Shown here: piece after piece, positions 38,812 through 47,550 of the stretch
Layout of the letters: each line of letters begins with the position of its first letter
How positions within the stretch are numbered: position 1 is the stretch's first letter
Source: Candidatus Phyllobacterium onerii
Lineage (GTDB): Bacteria; Pseudomonadota; Alphaproteobacteria; Rhizobiales; Rhizobiaceae
Assembly: GCF_028331445.1 (NCBI RefSeq)
Contig: NZ_JAQMHX010000006.1
Location: 124,001 to 188,000 of the forward strand
Direction: 5' to 3'
Length of the DNA stretch: 64,000 nucleotides
Notes under the pieces: generated by a model
What the model saw: the letters and a program-made list of their open reading frames with translations, nothing else
Databases searched by the model: none
What the model was told of the DNA's origin: nothing
Made by a program: the position numbers and the translations under genes

Positions 38812-38978
38812 TGCGCGAAATGTCACGAAATGCGGCTTCAGAACGGTCTGAAGCCGAGGTTAAAGAACAAGGCGGTCCGGCGGAAGATATAAGATCCATC
38901 AGATCGCTCATTCCGCTTGCGCTCGGGATGCTTGTCTTTATGGCAGCTCTTGCCTCTCTGATGAAACTCTTGCCCTGA
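38811..38978 (+). CDS. 55-aa single-span membrane protein
   Basis: Its ATG at 38811 shares a base with the previous stop (TGATG) and lacks its own ribosome site, indicating translational coupling. The first 30 residues are charged (SERSEAEVKEQGG), then one helix IPLALGMLVFMAALASLMKLLP. The coupled pair looks like a two-subunit small membrane complex of unknown role, between the sugar dehydrogenase and the kdp operon. Confidence 0.55.
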   Translation: MREMSRNAASERSEAEVKEQGGPAEDIRSIRSLIPLALGMLVFMAALASLMKLLP

Positions 38979-39021
38979 CCAGCACGGAACCATCGATTCA
39001 GGCCTTAGTAGATTTCAAATC

Positions 39022-39038
39022 CTTATAGTTTTTTTATT
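39022..39038 (+). promoter_or_regulatory. Candidate KdpE-binding box
   Basis: CTTATA-GTTTT-TTTATT resembles the E. coli kdp operator, two 6-mers TTTATA and TTTACA separated by five bases (CTTTT). Here 5/6 and 4/6 bases of the 6-mers and 4/5 of the spacer match. It lies 133 bp before the first small kdp gene. Confidence 0.5.
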
Positions 39039-39170
39039 TCTTCTCGCTGTGTCCCGTCTCGAACTTTTATGGTGTTTCGAGCCATATTCTGCCGCGATCA
39101 GCGAGCTTGGCAGTGTTGCCCACGCCCCATCTGATTGGACCATTTATGCAATCAATAAGGAGTTCTATCG

Positions 39171-39251
39171 ATGGACATTGTTGTTCTCGCGATAGGTATT
39201 TTGTTCTTAGTCCTCTCGCTGGCTTACACCAAAGCCTGCGATAATCTGTGA
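39171..39251 (+). CDS. 26-aa KdpF-like membrane peptide
   Basis: MDIVVLAIGILFLVLSLAYT then KACDNL: one membrane helix and a short polar end. AATAAGGAG at 39155 is a good ribosome site. It is 16 bp before kdpF, which has the same build. It may be a second KdpF-like stabiliser of the Kdp complex or a leader peptide. Too short for common gene callers. Confidence 0.65.
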   Translation: MDIVVLAIGILFLVLSLAYTKACDNL

Positions 39252-39267
39252 CTGGAGGGAACGGCAA

Positions 39268-39357
39268 ATGACTATCGACTATATTCTCGGCGGCGCTGTG
39301 ACCTTGTTTCTCCTCGCCTACCTCACCTACGCCCTCGTTCGTCCGGAGCGCTTCTGA
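39268..39357 (+). CDS. kdpF: Potassium-transporting ATPase subunit F
   Basis: 29 aa: MTIDYILGGAVTLFLLAYLT then YALVRPERF. The one-helix form ending in LVRPERF is the KdpF signature. It stabilises the KdpABC pump at the lipid interface of KdpA. GGAGGGA at 39254 is its ribosome site. It lies 178 bp before kdpA, farther than usual, with a repeat-like stretch between. Confidence 0.82.
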   Translation: MTIDYILGGAVTLFLLAYLTYALVRPERF

Positions 39358-39403
39358 GAGGCCGTTGATTATTCCAGCTTGACGGGCATCCGACGCGATT
39401 TTC

Positions 39404-39452
39404 TGCGCTTCCGGTGCTCATGGACGAAAATGTCCACTGCGCTCCGGTTCTC
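39404..39452. repeat. Imperfect direct repeats around a small hairpin in the kdpF-kdpA gap
   Basis: TGCGCTTCCGGTGCTC at 39404 and TGCGCTCCGGTTCTC at 39438 flank TGGAC-GAAAAT-GTCCA (39421-39436). The layout resembles small interspersed intergenic elements of rhizobia; no second copy occurs in this window. Confidence 0.35.
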
Positions 39453-39535
39453 GAAAACCGCACCGGCTCTCTCGACAAGCTGAATTCTCAAACGGTCTCC
39501 AGCGCATTACCGGCCAAGGCCCGGAAAGCTACACC

Positions 39536-41239
39536 ATGACTCTCAACGGTTGGATACAGATCCTCGTCTTCTGCGGGATCATCATTTTGCTCGTGAAACC
39601 GCTCGGCGGCTACATGACGCGCGTCTTCAACGGCGATCGCACATTCCTTTCGCCCATCTTCGTTCCCGTGGAGCGAGGTCTCTACCGCATAGCCGGAACC
39701 AGCGAACAGGAAGAACAGCATTGGACGACGTATACAGCGGCGCTGCTGTTCTTCAGCTTGGCCGGCTTTATCGTTCTCTATTTCCTGCAGCGGTTCCAGG
39801 GAGCACTTCCTTATAACCCTGCCGCGATGGGCGCAACGGAGCCCGGGCTCGCGTTCAATACGGCTGTCAGCTTCGTAACCAATACGAACTGGCAGAATTA
39901 CGGCGGCGAAAGCACCATGTCGTATCTCGTGCAGATGGCGGGCTTTACAGTTCAGAACTTCGTCTCGGCGGCTACGGGTATTGCCATCGCGGTTGCGTTG
40001 ATCCGGGGTTTCACCAGAGCTTCCGGCCGGTCGATCGGCAATTTCTGGGTCGATCTGACCAGATGCACGCTCTATATTCTCCTGCCGATCTGCATCGTGC
40101 TGACGTTGGTCTACGTCTATCTTGGCGTTCCGCAGACGCTCGGAACCTATGTTGATGCGACGACGCTGGAAGGCGCCAAGCAAACGATCGCCGTCGGGCC
40201 GGTTGCTTCGCAGCTTGCGATCAAGATGCTCGGCACCAATGGCGGCGGCTTCTTCAACGTGAATTCGGCGCATCCTTTCGAAAATCCCGATGCCATCTCG
40301 AACCTCATCCAGATGGTCACGATCTTTGCGATCGGCGCGGCATTGACCAACGTGTTCGGCCGCATGGCTGGTAACCAGCGCCAGGGCTGGGCGATCTTTG
40401 CTGCCATGGGCGTCATGTTCCTGGCGGGTGTAATCGTCTGCTACTGGGGTGAGGCTGCCGGTAATCCGCTCGTCCATGCGCTCGGGATCGACGGCGGCAA
40501 CATGGAAGGCAAGGAGACACGCTTCGGCATAGCCTTGTCCGCATTGTTTGCGGTTGTCACAACGGCCGCCTCCTGCGGTGCGGTCAATGCGATGCATGAC
40601 AGCTTCATGGCCATCAGTGGCATGATACCCCTCATCAACATGATGCTGGGAGAGGTGATTGTCGGCGGCGTCGGTGCCGGTCTTTATGGCATCCTGCTTT
40701 ACGTCATCATTGCAGTCTTCGTGGCTGGCCTGATGGTTGGCCGTACGCCGGAATATCTTGGCAAGAAGATCGAGGCCAAGGAAGTCAAGATGGCCATGCT
40801 GGCCGTTCTGGTACTGCCGTTAGCAATGCTCGGCTTTACGGCAATAGCCTCGGTACTGCCGTCGGCAGTCGCTTCCATTGCGAACGCCGGTCCGCATGGC
40901 TTCTCGGAGATACTGTACGCCTATACCTCCGCAGCGGCGAACAACGGTTCGGCCTTTGGCGGTCTGACGGGCAATACGGCCTGGTACAACATTACGCTCG
41001 GTATCGGGATGTGGATGGGGCGGTTCTTCGTCATCATCCCTGCACTAGCGATCGCCGGTTCGCTGGTTGCCAAGAAAACCGTTCCGGAATCCGCAGGCAC
41101 CTTTCCGACCCACGGCGGCCTGTTCGTTGGTCTGCTCGTCGGTGTCATCCTGATTGTCGGCGGTCTCACCTTCTTCCCGGCGCTGGCCGTTGGACCGATC
41201 GTCGAGCACCTCGCCATCGGCCTCGGGCAGACATTCTGA
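39536..41239 (+). CDS. kdpA: Potassium-transporting ATPase subunit A
   Basis: 567 aa, the K+-binding channel-like subunit with about ten helices. The four selectivity-filter-like regions are recognisable, for example [35 protein letters not shown] and [23 protein letters not shown] precedes the start. K+ selected here is moved using ATP hydrolysis in KdpB. The stop shares a base with a 61-codon gene that precedes kdpB. Confidence 0.96.
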
Positions 41240-41424
41240 TGGGTCCCGTCATGCGTCACAGTTACCTGCAATTCAACCTCAAGCCTCGCGCCGGAAATTT
41301 GGCGCGGGGAGCAAAAAAGCGTGCGCGCGCTTCCGACATCATTCTCGGCATGACGCTGATGATGTTGTTCGTCTGGCTCGCCGCATACGGGTTTATTCAC
41401 CTTCACAACTGGAGTCTCAAATGA
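41239..41424 (+). CDS. 61-aa single-span membrane protein wedged between kdpA and kdpB
   Basis: The ATG at 41239 overlaps the kdpA stop by one base (TGATG), and the stop at 41422-41424 overlaps the kdpB ATG at 41421 (ATGA). The protein has a basic N-terminal half ([18 protein letters not shown]) and one membrane helix ([19 protein letters not shown]) ending HLHNWSLK; an internal ATG at 41251 is an alternative start. The tight coupling to both neighbours suggests translation with the pump. It could be an accessory Kdp subunit or assembly factor. I recognise no family. Confidence 0.7.
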
Positions 41425-43514
41425 GCCAGTCCAAATCAGCGAGTCTTATGGACTCATCCATTTTGATACCTGCCATCGGGGGTGCTTTCAAAAAGCTCAA
41501 CCCGCGCAGCCTCATCCGGAACCCCGTTATGTTCGTCGTCGCCGTGGTTTCAGCCCTGACGACCGTGCTGTTCGTCAAGGACATTGCAACAGGCGGACAG
41601 AGCCTCGGTTTCTCCTTCCAGATCATCATCTGGCTGTGGTTTACCGTGCTCTTTGCCAACTTCGCCGAAGCGGTGGCCGAGGGACGCGGCAAGGCCCAGG
41701 CAGATTCGTTGCGCAAGGCCCGGACCGAAACCCAGGCGAAACTCCTTTCGGGCGATGACCGCAGCAATTTCAAGCTGGTGCCTGGTGCAAGCCTGAAGGT
41801 TGGCGATATCGTCCTTGTCGATGCCGGTGACATCATCCCGTCTGACGGCGAGGTTGTCGAAGGTATCGCTTCGGTCAATGAATCGGCAATCACTGGCGAG
41901 TCCGCCCCGGTCATTCGCGAGTCCGGTGGTGACCGTTCTGCTGTGACCGGCGGAACGCAGGTTCTGTCCGACTGGCTCCGCGTCCGCATCACAGCGGCGG
42001 CCGGTTCGACCTTCATCGACCGGATGATCGCACTCGTCGAAGGTGCCGAGCGCCAGAAGACACCAAATGAAATCGCGCTCAACATCCTCCTCGCAGGCAT
42101 GACGCTGATCTTCGTTCTTGCCACGGCGACAATTCCGAGCTTTGCCTCCTATGCGGGCGGCGCCATTCCGGTCGTCGTCCTGGTTGCCCTGTTCGTGACG
42201 CTGATCCCGACAACGATCGGCGCATTGCTTTCGGCGATCGGTATTGCCGGCATGGACCGTCTTATTCAGTTCAACGTGCTGGCAATGTCCGGGCGTGCCG
42301 TCGAAGCTGCGGGTGACGTCGATACGCTGCTCCTCGACAAGACCGGCACGATCACCTTCGGTAATCGTCAGGCGACCGAGTTCTTGCCCGTCAAGGGCGT
42401 ATCGGAACAGGAACTTGCGGATGCCGCACAGCTTGCTTCGCTGGCGGATGAGACTCCCGAGGGCCGCTCGATCGTGGTTCTGGCCAAGGAAAAATACGGC
42501 ATACGGGCCCGGGATATGCAGACGCTGCATGCGACCTTCGTGCCCTTCACCGCACAGAGCCGCATGAGCGGTGTCGATATCGATGGATCATCGATCCGCA
42601 AGGGCGCTGTCGACGCTGTTCTGACCTATGCCAATCAGATGTCACTTGCGACGCCCGGAGCTGGTGGAACGACTGTTGCGACACGGGCCACGGCCGAGAC
42701 GATTCGTGATCTGCAAGCTATCGCCGACCAGATCGCCAAGGGCGGTGGCACACCGCTTGCAGTTGTCCGCGATGGCAAGCTGCTCGGCATCATATACTTG
42801 AAGGATATCGTCAAGGGCGGCATTCGCGAACGTTTCGCTGAACTACGCCGCATGGGCATCCGCACAGTGATGATCACCGGCGACAACCCGCTTACCGCTG
42901 CCGCCATTGCGGCGGAAGCCGGCGTCGACGACTTCCTCGCCCAGGCAACCCCCGAGAACAAGCTCACGCTGATCAGAGACGAGCAGTCGAAGGGCAAGCT
43001 TGTCGCCATGTGCGGTGACGGTACCAATGATGCTCCGGCACTCGCCCAAGCAGATGTGGGCGTCGCCATGAACACCGGTACTGTTGCAGCCCGCGAGGCC
43101 GGCAACATGGTCGATCTGGACAGCGATCCTACCAAGCTGATCGAGATCGTCGGTATCGGCAAGCAGTTGCTGATGACGCGCGGTGCGTTGACGACCTTCT
43201 CGATTGCCAATGATATCGCCAAGTACTTCGCCATTATCCCGGCGATGTTCCTGGCGTTCTATCCGCAGCTCGGCGCACTCAATATCATGGGGCTGCAGAC
43301 ACCCCAGAGCGCCATCCTGTCAGCGATCATCTTCAACGCGCTCATCATCGTCGCGCTGATCCCGTTGTCGCTGAAGGGCGTCAAATACCGGGCTGTCGGT
43401 GCAGGCGCGCTGTTGAGGCGCAACCTTCTCATCTATGGCCTCGGCGGCGTCATTGTCCCCTTCGTCGGCATCAAAGCTATCGATATGGTCATCACAAGCC
43501 TCGGCTTGGCGTAA
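41421..43514 (+). CDS. kdpB: Potassium-transporting ATPase subunit B
   Basis: 697 aa P-type ATPase; the start at 41421 has GGAG at 41411 and overlaps the 61-aa gene. The phosphorylated Asp is in [15 protein letters not shown], the actuator motif in [12 protein letters not shown] and the hinge in [24 protein letters not shown]. It hydrolyses ATP to drive K+ through KdpA. Length and motifs are standard. The much longer upstream frame from 41154 is a shadow of kdpA. Confidence 0.96.
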
Positions 43515-43526
43515 AGGATTATTCCA

Positions 43527-44096
43527 ATGTTAAAACAACTCAAACCCGCGATTATCATGATAATTGCATTTACGGTCATAACCGGCCTTATCTATCCTTT
43601 GGGCATGACCGGCATTGCTCAGGTTCTGTTCCCGCGGCAGGCCAATGGCAGCCTCATCGAGAAGAACGGTACTGTCATAGGTTCCGAGCTGATCGGCCAG
43701 GCCTTTGCCGCCGACAAGTACTTCCATGGCAGGCCGTCTGCTGCGGGTGACGGGTACAATGCTGCTGCGTCCAGTGGATCCAATCTTGGACCGACAAATC
43801 CGAAATTGATCGATCGTATCAAGACGGATCTGGCCGCCTTACAGGCAACCAATCCGAATACTCCGGTGCCGATGGACCTCGTTACCACCTCGGGCAGCGG
43901 CCTGGATCCTCACGTCTCGCCGGAAGGCGCTTACTTCCAGGTGCCGCGCGTCGCCAAGGCGCGTGGTATCGATGAAACCCGCATCCGTCAGTTGGTCGAT
44001 CAGAACGTCCAGGGCCGCGAGCTCGGTTTCATGGGAGAGCCGGTGGTGAATGTGCTGGCGCTGAACCAGGCACTTGATGGCCTGACGGCACAGTAG
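43527..44096 (+). CDS. kdpC: Potassium-transporting ATPase subunit C
   Basis: 189 aa with one N-terminal helix ([20 protein letters not shown]) and a periplasmic domain with [27 protein letters not shown] and [14 protein letters not shown], all KdpC hallmarks. It supports ATP binding and assembly of KdpAB. AAAGGA at 43513 is the ribosome site; 12 bp after kdpB. Confidence 0.95.
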
Positions 44097-44155
44097 TTGA
44101 ATGGGAGCCGGGGATCTGCAACCGCAAACCCCGGCTCTGGCATGAGAGGCCCACA

Positions 44156-46861
44156 ATGCCCACTGACAGCCGCGACACCGACAGGAGACCATCACCCGAT
44201 GCACTCCTTGAAAATGCGGAGCGCGAGACGCGGGGACGGCTGAAGATTTTTCTCGGGGCGGCACCCGGTGTGGGCAAAACCTATGAAATGCTGATGGCTG
44301 GCCGAGCGGCACTTGCAGATGGCAAGGATGTGGTGATCGGCGTCGTCGAGACGCATGGCCGCAAGGAAACGCAGGCTCTGGTCAACGGTTTCGAAGTGAT
44401 CGCGCGCACACATGTCAACTACAAGGATCATCATCTCCAGGAGATGGACCTCGATGCGATCCTCGCACGCCGGCCAGGCCTCGTTCTGGTCGATGAACTC
44501 GCACATACGAACGCTCCAGGCACGCGACATCCGAAGCGGTACATGGATGTGCAGGAGATCCTGGCACACGACATCGATGTCTATTCGACGATGAACATCC
44601 AGCATGTCGAAAGCCTGAATGATGTCGTGGCGCAGATCACCAAGGTGCGGGTGCGCGAAACAGTGCCGGATTCGGTCATCGACCAGGCCGATGAGGTCGA
44701 GATCATCGATCTGACGCCCGCTGATCTGATCAAGCGTCTGCTGGAGGGCAAGGTCTACGTTCCCGCCAACGCCAAGCGCGCCATGGAAAACTATTTTTCG
44801 CCAGGCAATTTGACTGCCCTGCGCGAGCTTGCACTCCGGCGTACCGCGCAACGTGTCGATGATCAGCTGCTTACCCATATGCAGGCGAATGCGATATCCG
44901 GGCCTTGGGCGGCTGGCGACCGGGTTCTCGTCTGTATCGACGAACATCCGGGCGGTGCTTCACTTGTCAGATATGCCCGCCGTCTTGCGGATCGGCTTCG
45001 GGCGCCGTGGACAGCTGTTAACGTGGAGACACATCGGTCGACGCGTTTTTCAGAAGCGGACCGGAATCGGATCGCATCTACGCTGCGCCTTGCGGGCCAG
45101 CTAGGTGGTGATGCGATCACGCTCCCGGGCCGGGATGCAGCCGAGGAAATTGCACGTCACGCACGGGAAAACAATGTTACACACATTGTCATCGGCAAGC
45201 CGCACAAGGCGCAATGGCGCGAACTCTTTGAAGGGTCGGTATCCCATGATCTGATCCGCCGGGCCGGCAATATCAGCGTGCATGTCATCTCGGGAAGCGA
45301 AGAGCATGCGGGTGCTACGGTGCGGACCGCCGAGCAGGCGCCAATGGCGAGCGTCCGGATCAGAGCCTATCTCTTGAGCACCGCCTATGTGATCGGTGCA
45401 CTCGCATTCGGCCTTTTACTCTCTAGCGTGGTTGACGTGCGCAACATCGCGCTTGTCTTCCTCATGGCGGTGCTTGCTTCCGCCGTTTCGGTTGGGCTCT
45501 GGCCGGCTTTGTTCGCATCCGTCCTTAGCGCCCTGATGCTCAATTTCTTCTTTCTCCAGCCGCTCTACACGCTCGATATTAGCGATCCTGAAAGCGTCAT
45601 CGCGCTAGCCTTCTTCTTCGGTGTCGCAGTCATTGCCAGCAATCTGACCGCACGGGTCCAGCGTCAGGCCTCGGCAGCACGTCAGCGCGCCCGAACGACC
45701 GAAGATCTCTATCTCTTCAGCAAGAAGCTCGCTGGGACCGGCACGCTTGATGATGTGTTGTGGGCAACGGCGTTCCAGATCGCATCCATGTTGAAGGTGC
45801 GTGTGGTTCTGCTTCTGCCAGATCATGGGACCATCGAGGTGAAGGCCGGCTATCCACCTGACGATACGCTGGATGATGCGGACATCGCGGCGGCCCGCTG
45901 GGCTTGGGAAAACAACCGTGCAGCAGGTCGAGGAGCTGACACGCTGCCGGGTGCGAAGCGGCTTTATCTGCCATTGCGGACGGGCCGCATGGCGGTCGGT
46001 GTCATAGGGCTGGATAGTGACAAGCAGGGGCCGCTGCTCACGCCGGAGCAACAACGTCTGCTCGATGCACTGGCTGATCAGGCGGCTGTCGCCATAGAGC
46101 GCACGCAGCTTGTGGCCGACGTCGACCGTGCCAGGCTCGCAGCGGAGGCCGACCGCCTTCGTTCGGCGCTGCTGACGTCGATCTCGCACGATCTGAAGAC
46201 CCCGCTTGCCGCCATCATGGGTGCTGCAGGTACCTTGAAGGAGTTTGCGCAGGCCTTGCCGATCGAGGCGCGGGTGGAACTGCTTGGGACTGTCATCGAC
46301 GAGTCCGAGCGACTCAACCGGTTCATCGCCAATCTGCTCGACATGACCAGGATCGAATCCGGCGCAATGGAGCCGAATTTCGCGTTCCACTACGTCGGCG
46401 ACATTGTCGGCACCGCGCTGAGCCGGGCCAGAAAGATCATTGGGCAGCACAAGACGGAGGTCAATATACCGCCCGACCTGCCGATGCTGAGGGTGGATCC
46501 GGTGCTGTTTGAGCAAGTACTGTTCAACCTTCTCGACAATGCCTCCAAATATGCACCGGAAGGTTCCTCGCTGCGAATTCAGGCCTGGACCGATGAGGGC
46601 TGGGTAATCCTGCAGGTCATCGATGAAGGGCCAGGCATCCCCGCCGATGATCTGGAGCGAGTTTTCGATACATTCTATCGCGTACGCAAGGGCGATCAGG
46701 TCACAGCCGGTACTGGGCTTGGCCTGTCGATATCACGCGGCTTCATAGAAGCCATGGGCGGCACCATTAAAGCGGAAAGGCGTATCGACGGGTCGGGCAC
46801 GATCTTCACGATCAGGATGCCCGTTCCGAAGGAGACGCCAAACCTGGAAGAACTCATATGA
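44156..46861 (+). CDS. kdpD: Sensor histidine kinase KdpD
   Basis: 901 aa. The order is KdpD N-domain with Walker A GAAPGVGKTYEML (about 33-45) and DELAHTNAPG, a universal-stress-protein domain (about 250-380), four membrane helices (about 400-500), a GAF region, HisKA with His in SISHDLKTPLAAIMGAAG (about 677) and the ATPase domain ending in GTGLGLSISRG. It senses low K+ or turgor and phosphorylates KdpE. It overlaps kdpE by ATGA. The downstream ptsN paralogue may bind it. Confidence 0.95.
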   Translation: MPTDSRDTDRRPSPDALLENAERETRGRLKIFLGAAPGVGKTYEMLMAGRAALADGKDVVIGVVETHGRKETQALVNGFEVIARTHVNYKDHHLQEMDLDAILARRPGLVLVDELAHTNAPGTRHPKRYMDVQEILAHDIDVYSTMNIQHVESLNDVVAQITKVRVRETVPDSVIDQADEVEIIDLTPADLIKRLLEGKVYVPANAKRAMENYFSPGNLTALRELALRRTAQRVDDQLLTHMQANAISGPWAAGDRVLVCIDEHPGGASLVRYARRLADRLRAPWTAVNVETHRSTRFSEADRNRIASTLRLAGQLGGDAITLPGRDAAEEIARHARENNVTHIVIGKPHKAQWRELFEGSVSHDLIRRAGNISVHVISGSEEHAGATVRTAEQAPMASVRIRAYLLSTAYVIGALAFGLLLSSVVDVRNIALVFLMAVLASAVSVGLWPALFASVLSALMLNFFFLQPLYTLDISDPESVIALAFFFGVAVIASNLTARVQRQASAARQRARTTEDLYLFSKKLAGTGTLDDVLWATAFQIASMLKVRVVLLLPDHGTIEVKAGYPPDDTLDDADIAAARWAWENNRAAGRGADTLPGAKRLYLPLRTGRMAVGVIGLDSDKQGPLLTPEQQRLLDALADQAAVAIERTQLVADVDRARLAAEADRLRSALLTSISHDLKTPLAAIMGAAGTLKEFAQALPIEARVELLGTVIDESERLNRFIANLLDMTRIESGAMEPNFAFHYVGDIVGTALSRARKIIGQHKTEVNIPPDLPMLRVDPVLFEQVLFNLLDNASKYAPEGSSLRIQAWTDEGWVILQVIDEGPGIPADDLERVFDTFYRVRKGDQVTAGTGLGLSISRGFIEAMGGTIKAERRIDGSGTIFTIRMPVPKETPNLEELI

Positions 46862-47550
46862 CAAATTCAAGCGTAAAGATCCTGGTTGTGGATGACGAGC
46901 CACCCATCCGCAAGTTGCTCCGGCTTGGCCTAAGCACGCAGGGCTACAGTGTTGTCGAGGCTATGAACGCCACCGCCGCGATCGAGCAAATAGCTCTGTC
47001 TCAGCCGGATCTCGTCGTGCTTGATCTCGGACTGCCGGACCTTTCCGGTTACGAACTGCTGCGTCGCTGGCGCGATGAGGGTTCGGATCTGCCGGTGGTC
47101 ATTCTTTCAAGCCGGACGGACGAAGGCGGTATCGTGCAGGCGCTGGAGCTCGGCGCAGACGATTATATCACCAAGCCGTTCGGCATGAATGAACTCGTCG
47201 CTCGTATACGTGTCGCGTTGCGGCACAGGTTGCAGCAGCAGGGAGAGAGGCCGATTTTCGAGACGGGCGGGCTTTCGGTCGATCTGGTCAAGCGCATCGT
47301 CAAGGTCGATGGCAAAGAGGTCAAGCTGTCGCCAAAGGAGTATGAGATCCTGCGTGTCCTCGTACAGCATGCGGGCAAGGCTCTGACGCACCGGTTCCTG
47401 CTGGCGCAGGTGTGGGGAGGTTCGACGGATGTGCAATATCTGCGCGTTCACGTGCGGCAACTCCGGCAGAAGATCGAGCGGCTGCCCGACCAACCGCAAT
47501 ATATCACGACCGAGACCGGCGTCGGCTATCGCCTCAGAGAAGTAGAGTGA
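46858..47550 (+). CDS. kdpE: Response regulator KdpE
   Basis: 230 aa OmpR-type regulator. VVDDEPPIRK opens the receiver, the phospho-acceptor is in LVVLDLGLPDLSG and the Lys in ITKPFG; the winged-helix domain ends YITTETGVGYRL. It would activate the kdp genes, probably at the KdpE-like box 39022-39038. It overlaps kdpD by four bases. Confidence 0.95.
   Translation: MTNSSVKILVVDDEPPIRKLLRLGLSTQGYSVVEAMNATAAIEQIALSQPDLVVLDLGLPDLSGYELLRRWRDEGSDLPVVILSSRTDEGGIVQALELGADDYITKPFGMNELVARIRVALRHRLQQQGERPIFETGGLSVDLVKRIVKVDGKEVKLSPKEYEILRVLVQHAGKALTHRFLLAQVWGGSTDVQYLRVHVRQLRQKIERLPDQPQYITTETGVGYRLREVE

Follow-up and report, generated by a model that had tools for sequence, protein, structure and literature searches.

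A small membrane-protein ORF located between kdpA and kdpB of the window (i.e., the whole 64,000-nt stretch analysed), here called x, is a real protein-coding gene under purifying selection. It is probably a dispensable accessory inner-membrane protein that serves the Kdp pump specifically, in the vicinity of KdpB, and it is found mainly in one KdpB branch of the Hyphomicrobiales. KdpFABC is described as a four-subunit complex in the relevant passages of PMC6255902 and PMC10654040; comparison of the operons suggests that, in many root-nodule bacteria and related organisms, the four-part pump of the textbooks has a further partner that was overlooked. Among the matches listed for open-licence PMC papers (titles and abstract openings), none dealt with a further gene lying between kdpA and kdpB, and the main text of PMC10117765, a small-protein survey of S. 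meliloti, does not contain the term "kdp".

In the window, kdpF, kdpA, x, kdpB, kdpC, kdpD and the gene of a KdpE-type regulator all have the same direction, and the neighbours of x were identified by Pfam/NCBIfam (Table 1). The initial annotation described x as a 61-codon gene. This frame is present, with its ATG overlapping the kdpA stop (TGATG) and its TGA overlapping the kdpB ATG (ATGA). The frame stands; the 61-codon start is not the conserved one, relatives pointing to the next ATG and thus to 57 codons. The second ATG is kept in 14/14 genus copies and the first one is absent in 4/14 (L018, L025, L026 and L033), while the residues between both ATGs are variable across relatives. Two public Phyllobacterium records annotate x from the second ATG, as "hypothetical protein".

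Table 1. Features of the kdp region, in positions of the window.
Feature	Position	Strand	Basis or remark
p26, 26-aa single-span peptide, upstream of kdpF	39171..39251	+	similar peptide (by eye) in 17/17 kdp loci
kdpF	39268..39357	+	PF09604, NF011342
kdpA	39536..41239	+	PF03814, TIGR00680
Alternative upstream start of x, overlaps kdpA stop, adds four variable codons	41239..41250	+	ATG in 10/14 genus copies
Small membrane-protein gene x, 57 aa	41251..41424 (stop TGA 41422-41424)	+	frame and start conserved in genus, dN/dS, same start annotated in relatives
R-A-S-D motif of x, onset of membrane helix, Ser best conserved	41326..41337	+	alignments
Transmembrane helix of x (predicted)	41335..41403	+	hydropathy, AlphaFold2 helix, kept tail-less in 25-28 aa mini forms
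Possible hairpin over kdpB ribosome-binding site and start codon	41408..41430	+	pairs near-invariant, no covariation support
kdpB	41421..43514	+	TIGR01497
kdpC	43527..44096	+	PF02669
kdpD sensor kinase	44156..46861	+	PF02702 (KdpD)
kdpE-type response regulator	46858..47550	+	PF00072 + PF00486; KdpE name from position

The very basic N-terminus and the single membrane helix of the initial description were both found again. The 57-aa form has 8 Lys/Arg and no Asp/Glu in residues 1-28, and a pI of 11.5; it contains one hydrophobic stretch and one AlphaFold2 helix, i.e., a single predicted membrane helix. With the 14-row genus alignment, AlphaFold2 models x as one helix (residues 10-56), the mean pLDDT being 96 in residues 31-40 and 93 in residues 41-50. 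The core of x is a membrane helix opening with R-(A/V)-S-(D/T/N/S)-hydrophobic. Divergence is high: Ser is the sole column conserved above 90% in an alignment of 30 diverse members. The pattern of this motif, which had been picked after the sequences were seen, is found in 32 of 60 non-redundant candidates, vs. 1.8 on average when the residues are shuffled. In four loci of genus g17 only a mini form of 25-28 aa is left, i.e., the helix without the tail, in which (K/N)-P-S-(S/N) replaces R-A-S-D; a fifth g17 genome (G035) has a full x in another gene order (L087). As the helix survives alone in these four loci, we take this to mean that the helix would be the essential part of x and the tail a variable addition.

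The initial remark that x corresponds to no described part of the complex holds, since Pfam/NCBIfam searches give no match to any named Kdp subunit. Neither the window ORF nor the 30 members have a Pfam or NCBIfam match above chance (best E 0.032). There is no PDB family match, and the best PDB sequence match (E 0.083), to the membrane helix of a receptor, was taken as chance. KdpF is like x a tiny single-span peptide of the kdp operon, and both window helices begin with D-x-I-L-G; they differ in that kdpF exists as its own gene alongside x in the operon, and that the basic tail before the helix belongs to x. The KdpF profiles PF09604 and TIGR02115 match the real kdpF but not window x at E up to 1, and 0/30 diverse members match KdpF models at E up to 0.5. 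Alignment of x by hhalign with a profile of KdpF from related operons gave a probability of 6.3% and E 0.0059 over 20 hydrophobic columns; x as a second KdpF was not retained, this similarity being too weak to carry it. The cyanobacterial kdpG is another extra small kdp gene and is thus, like x, an additional gene in the operon; it differs from x in its place between kdpB and kdpC and in its lineage.

Within the genus, kdpB occurs in 18/20 genomes (19 copies) and protein matches to x in 13/20 genomes at 14 places, all 14 adjoining kdpB. Thirteen of the 19 kdpB copies have an intact x. The other copies comprise: (i) a frame-broken x (L026); (ii) a deletion that left only a 3' remnant, with a gap of 55 nt (L030); (iii) a 100-nt gap without recognisable x (L027); (iv) three divergent operons without x, whose gap measures 11-15 nt, according to which kdpB start is chosen. 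One genome (G019) has two kdp operons (L021 and L033), each with its own x. A weak match in G042 (L034) was dropped, as it lies inside a 795-aa open frame on a contig other than that of its kdpB. The named relatives are Phyllobacterium in 3/6 plasmid records, and in 8/10 loci of a separate search.

The comparison of synonymous and non-synonymous changes, proposed with the initial annotation as a check, supports it: in the 13 intact genus copies the median pairwise dN/dS is 0.27 (77 pairs), well under 1. Over 52 codons, pS is 0.39 and pN 0.14, i.e., a pN/pS of 0.35, vs. a mean of 0.82 and a minimum of 0.55 in 100 column-shuffled alignments. At the first, second and third codon position, respectively, 26, 17 and 40 of the 52 columns vary. 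The two shifted frames contain 30 and only 2 stops in the 13 copies; as one of them is nearly open too, the openness of the x frame is by itself poor evidence. Both neighbours are more constrained than x, with a ratio of 0.16 over the initial 33 codons of kdpB and 0.06 over the last 60 codons of kdpA. In nine other groups the pN/pS of x ranges from 0.19 to 0.74, always below 1, the highest values being those of a near-identical set (0.74), f42 (0.68) and g94 (0.59). The mini forms of g17 have a pN/pS of 0.34.

kdpB was detected in 195/394 genomes of the family, 111/297 of the order and 38/240 of the class. The DNA upstream of kdpB was read in 193 loci of 190 order genomes, a subset of these matches (128 loci in the window's family and 65 outside it). 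An x candidate, i.e., a single-span ORF just upstream of kdpB, is present in 86/193 of these Hyphomicrobiales loci, so that the conserved reading frame expected by the initial annotation at this position does exist; 69 candidates belong to the window's family and 17 to seven other families. Their length varies from 39 to 118 aa (median 57), their median charge is +5 before the helix and 0 after it, and 71/86 have the Ser/Thr motif at the helix start. The motif pattern is missed by 15/86. The f34 candidates (L049, L062, L067 and L196) plus L053 and L188 may be unrelated to x, and others, such as L064, L104, L141 and L155, look related though missing the pattern. The remaining 107 loci have no full-size candidate, four of them having the mini form.

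Sorted by the length of the kdpA-kdpB gap, membrane ORFs of 35 aa or more are found in 68/72 gaps of 150-350 nt, 0/12 gaps of 70-149 nt and 0/82 gaps under 70 nt. With stricter requirements (ATG, at least 45 aa, hydrophobic helix and net positive tail), a qualifying ORF is found in 75/92 gaps of 150-350 nt, vs. 0.02 expected from dinucleotide shuffles and 0/92 in the reversed gaps. One locus (L041), excluded from the 86 candidates by its gap length of 709 nt, has a kdpC-like ORF between kdpA and kdpB. Not one of the 29 loci read in other Alphaproteobacteria has x; they come from 29 of the 37 class genomes with kdpB besides genome G000, and the gap is under 70 nt in 28/29 of them. A 24-residue match to x was seen in a Vicinamibacterales MAG (L265).

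x is present in Rhizobium leguminosarum GLR17, Sinorhizobium fredii CCBAU 25509, R. lusitanum 629, R. tumorigenes 932 and Shinella zoogloeoides Teo12. S. meliloti RCAM1115, the KdpB of which is 68% identical to that of the window, has no x and a gap of 11 nt. Phyllobacterium, R. leguminosarum, S. fredii CCBAU 25509 and other relatives carry an extra gene between kdpA and kdpB that is omitted or named "hypothetical". The qualification of x as unrecognised is accordingly right in one part, records that omit x, and not in another, records that already list a "hypothetical protein". The x peptide of R. leguminosarum matches 74 plasmid records; among the 25 of them listed, some have no feature, some a "hypothetical protein", and two a "phosphoenolpyruvate carboxylase". 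The latter name covers the x site in the Rhizobium beringeri plasmids CP140798.1 and CP140839.1, and is probably an annotation error. In S. fredii the kdpA-kdpB junction is co-transcribed and treated as intergenic in the part of PMC9239096 concerned; the same part reports that in another strain than the x-bearing CCBAU 25509, namely CCBAU45436, a kdpBC deletion mutant fails to grow at 1 uM K+ and has a reduced nodulation. Rhizobia of this kind would thus allow a modifier of the pump to be assayed.

The association of x with kdpB was examined in operons of different gene order. In 21 loci kdpF instead of kdpA lies upstream of kdpB, and 15/21 have x. The full gene arrangement was established in eight of them (L044, L045, L074, L079, L084, L086, L087 and L089, with L094-L101): kdpA lies directly behind kdpB in 8/8 and kdpC behind kdpA, i.e., the order is kdpF - x - kdpB - 26-aa peptide - kdpA - kdpC. 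Compared with the window, KdpB (measured on its C-terminal two thirds) is 83-86% identical, vs. 44-46% for KdpA and 39-45% for KdpC. From these identities, kdpA and kdpC were apparently exchanged for distant ones within the operon while kdpF - x - kdpB stayed together. x lies directly before kdpB in 6/8 of these operons, and a remnant is found in one more: L044, without x, aligns with the x region of L087 (score 93 vs. a shuffled maximum of 28). L045, also without x, gives a weak alignment with the x region of L084 (40 vs. 27) and none with that of L087. As x or a remnant is thus kept, x goes with kdpB (and kdpF) and not with kdpA or kdpC. The natural losses, the tail-less forms and the operons with exchanged kdpA and kdpC constitute a ready comparative set for the evolution of a helper helix on a P-type ATPase.

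A profile search of 247 family genomes gave 30 matches to x, of which 26 adjoin kdpB by coordinates; many of these 26 are members of the profile, so the informative part is the lack of strong matches elsewhere. The four other matches (E 3.7e-6 to 8.1e-4) lie inside open frames of 367-613 aa, on contigs other than that of kdpB or in a genome without kdpB. In a FastTree tree of KdpB (102 rows), 35/38 x rows and the broken copy are in one clade of 61, and the x label needs 11-12 changes vs. about 31 when shuffled. The three x rows outside this clade (f34) have no motif. So x arose in or near that clade, with several later losses and perhaps regains. Three loci from three families of the order (L039, L040 and L042, from f5, f11 and f34) have near-identical x and their KdpB rows are grouped on the tree; their operon was thus likely transferred horizontally.

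For a dispensable accessory protein of the pump, the following arrangement can be proposed. The basic tail of x would be cytosolic and its C-terminus outside, according to the positive-inside rule. x would be made next to KdpB, and its single helix would most likely pack onto KdpB in its membrane part, or onto the KdpB/KdpF interface; the Arg-x-Ser-Asp collar would be located at the membrane surface, and the variable basic tail would lie along the inner leaflet. In this place x would stabilise or tune the pump without being needed in catalysis; it could be a stabiliser, an assembly factor or a brake. KdpB (or KdpF) is the likely partner because x remains beside kdpB in the operons with exchanged kdpA and kdpC, and the repeated loss of x suggests that it tunes rather than drives the pump. 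The pump does not need x, as seen from the 107/193 loci without full-size x, the broken copy and the remnant described above. Small proteins acting on bacterial P-type ATPases are a precedent for such a role: in the part of PMC10710835 concerned, MgtR promotes the degradation of these ATPases, and MgtU and MgtS protect them. Like x, these proteins are small, of the membrane type and linked to a P-type ATPase (PMC10710835); they differ from it in that they have 28-31 aa and target Mg2+ pumps, and 0/30 x members match a named family above chance.

Another possibility is a small regulator that, once K+ is back, would inhibit the pump or make it unstable, in the manner of phospholamban with SERCA or of MgtR with MgtA/MgtB, the juxtamembrane Ser being a possible gate. 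The Arg-x-Ser sequence also precedes the phospholamban helix. x would resemble the small regulators of P-type ATPases, being predicted to be a single-span small membrane protein encoded with its pump, and its size, predicted topology, Arg-x-Ser motif at the membrane surface and dispensability, together with the opposite effects of MgtR and MgtU/MgtS just cited, all fit. Phospholamban and sarcolipin, named as small single-helix subunits in the passage concerned of PMC10654040, lie like x as a single helix beside a P-type ATPase; they are animal proteins and the likeness is an analogy only. They are absent from the 8 chains matched by x in the PDB sequence search, and no sequence match of x to phospholamban- or MgtR-type proteins was found. 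Moreover, the mini forms have (K/N)-P-S-(S/N) and not R-A-S-D. Such an inhibiting or destabilising role of x is unlikely.

In the initial annotation the ribosome was supposed to pass from kdpA through x to kdpB. Such a hand-over is not general: only 10/14 genus copies overlap the kdpA stop by TGATG, and of the 13 intact ones 8 overlap the kdpB start by ATGA, the remaining 5 ending 33-44 nt earlier. The related idea that x is a cis-acting ORF, the translation of which opens the ribosome-binding site of kdpB or keeps ribosomes moving while the peptide matters little, can invoke the ATGA overlap of the window and the possible hairpin over the kdpB start. The pattern CTGG...ATGAGxCAG is found in 41/86 loci with x, vs. 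4/18 loci without x in which KdpB is 78% identical or more and the gap shorter than 150 nt, and 7/85 other loci without x. There is also the example of mgtQ, an 8-codon ORF before the P-type ATPase gene mgtB of Salmonella, which acts in cis via RNA structure according to the part of PMC8092293 concerned. Like x, mgtQ is a small ORF in the gap ahead of a P-type ATPase gene; unlike x, which is conserved as a protein, it has 8 codons and acts in cis by way of RNA structure (PMC8092293). An mgtQ-like ORF works through RNA and leaves its peptide largely free; the amino acids of x are under purifying selection and its motif is common to several families, which is not this situation, though x may have a cis role in addition. 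Most of the 86 candidates, i.e., 62, end upstream of kdpB (46 of them by 30-60 nt), 19 overlap its start and 5 run past it, and the hairpin pattern is about equally frequent where x ends upstream (30/62) and where it overlaps (10/19). The RNA folding z-score is only −1.62, and 2/58 predicted pairs change on both sides. A coupling function without importance of the peptide is accordingly quite unlikely. It must be noted that an RNA element was rejected, given this z-score, the little covariation and the lack of any Rfam match at gathering thresholds in 38900-44200. The promoter/terminator scan was near the shuffle level (3 vs. 2.2 and 8 vs. 5.1).

x could also be the fifth subunit in a variant form of the Kdp pump, i.e., a bacterial phospholamban-like gate which, by mimicking or partly copying the N-terminus of KdpB, would set the conformational balance or the shut-off of the pump. 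x is in the operon and inherited with kdpB, as a gene for a KdpFABC subunit would be. About a quarter of the non-redundant candidates have in their tail an element [+]-x-hydrophobic-(N/D/H)-P-R that resembles the segment K-K-L-N-P-R before helix 1 of KdpB; the tail would then copy or compete with this membrane-surface segment. The element is found in 15/60 candidates vs. a mean of 1.1 and a maximum of 5 in residue shuffles, the pattern being chosen post hoc and thus only a lead. As a copy of the KdpB N-terminus x was rejected: all hhalign windows along KdpB are non-significant, with a best probability of 0.8% (1.5% with a longer first window), although the best, non-significant window contained the KKLNPR segment. 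This role appears improbable. Finally, that x is a gene remnant or a spurious ORF without function, as its high divergence and its breakage or deletion in some genomes might suggest, is hardly credible in view of the selection, the shuffles, the reversed-gap control and the wide distribution.

No Pfam or NCBIfam family matches the peptide p26 above chance. Besides x, p26 may be another Kdp peptide that was overlooked: peptides of 26-27 aa similar to it, as judged by eye, are found in 17/17 kdp loci examined, and by the same judgement one of them directly precedes kdpA in the eight operons where kdpB comes first.
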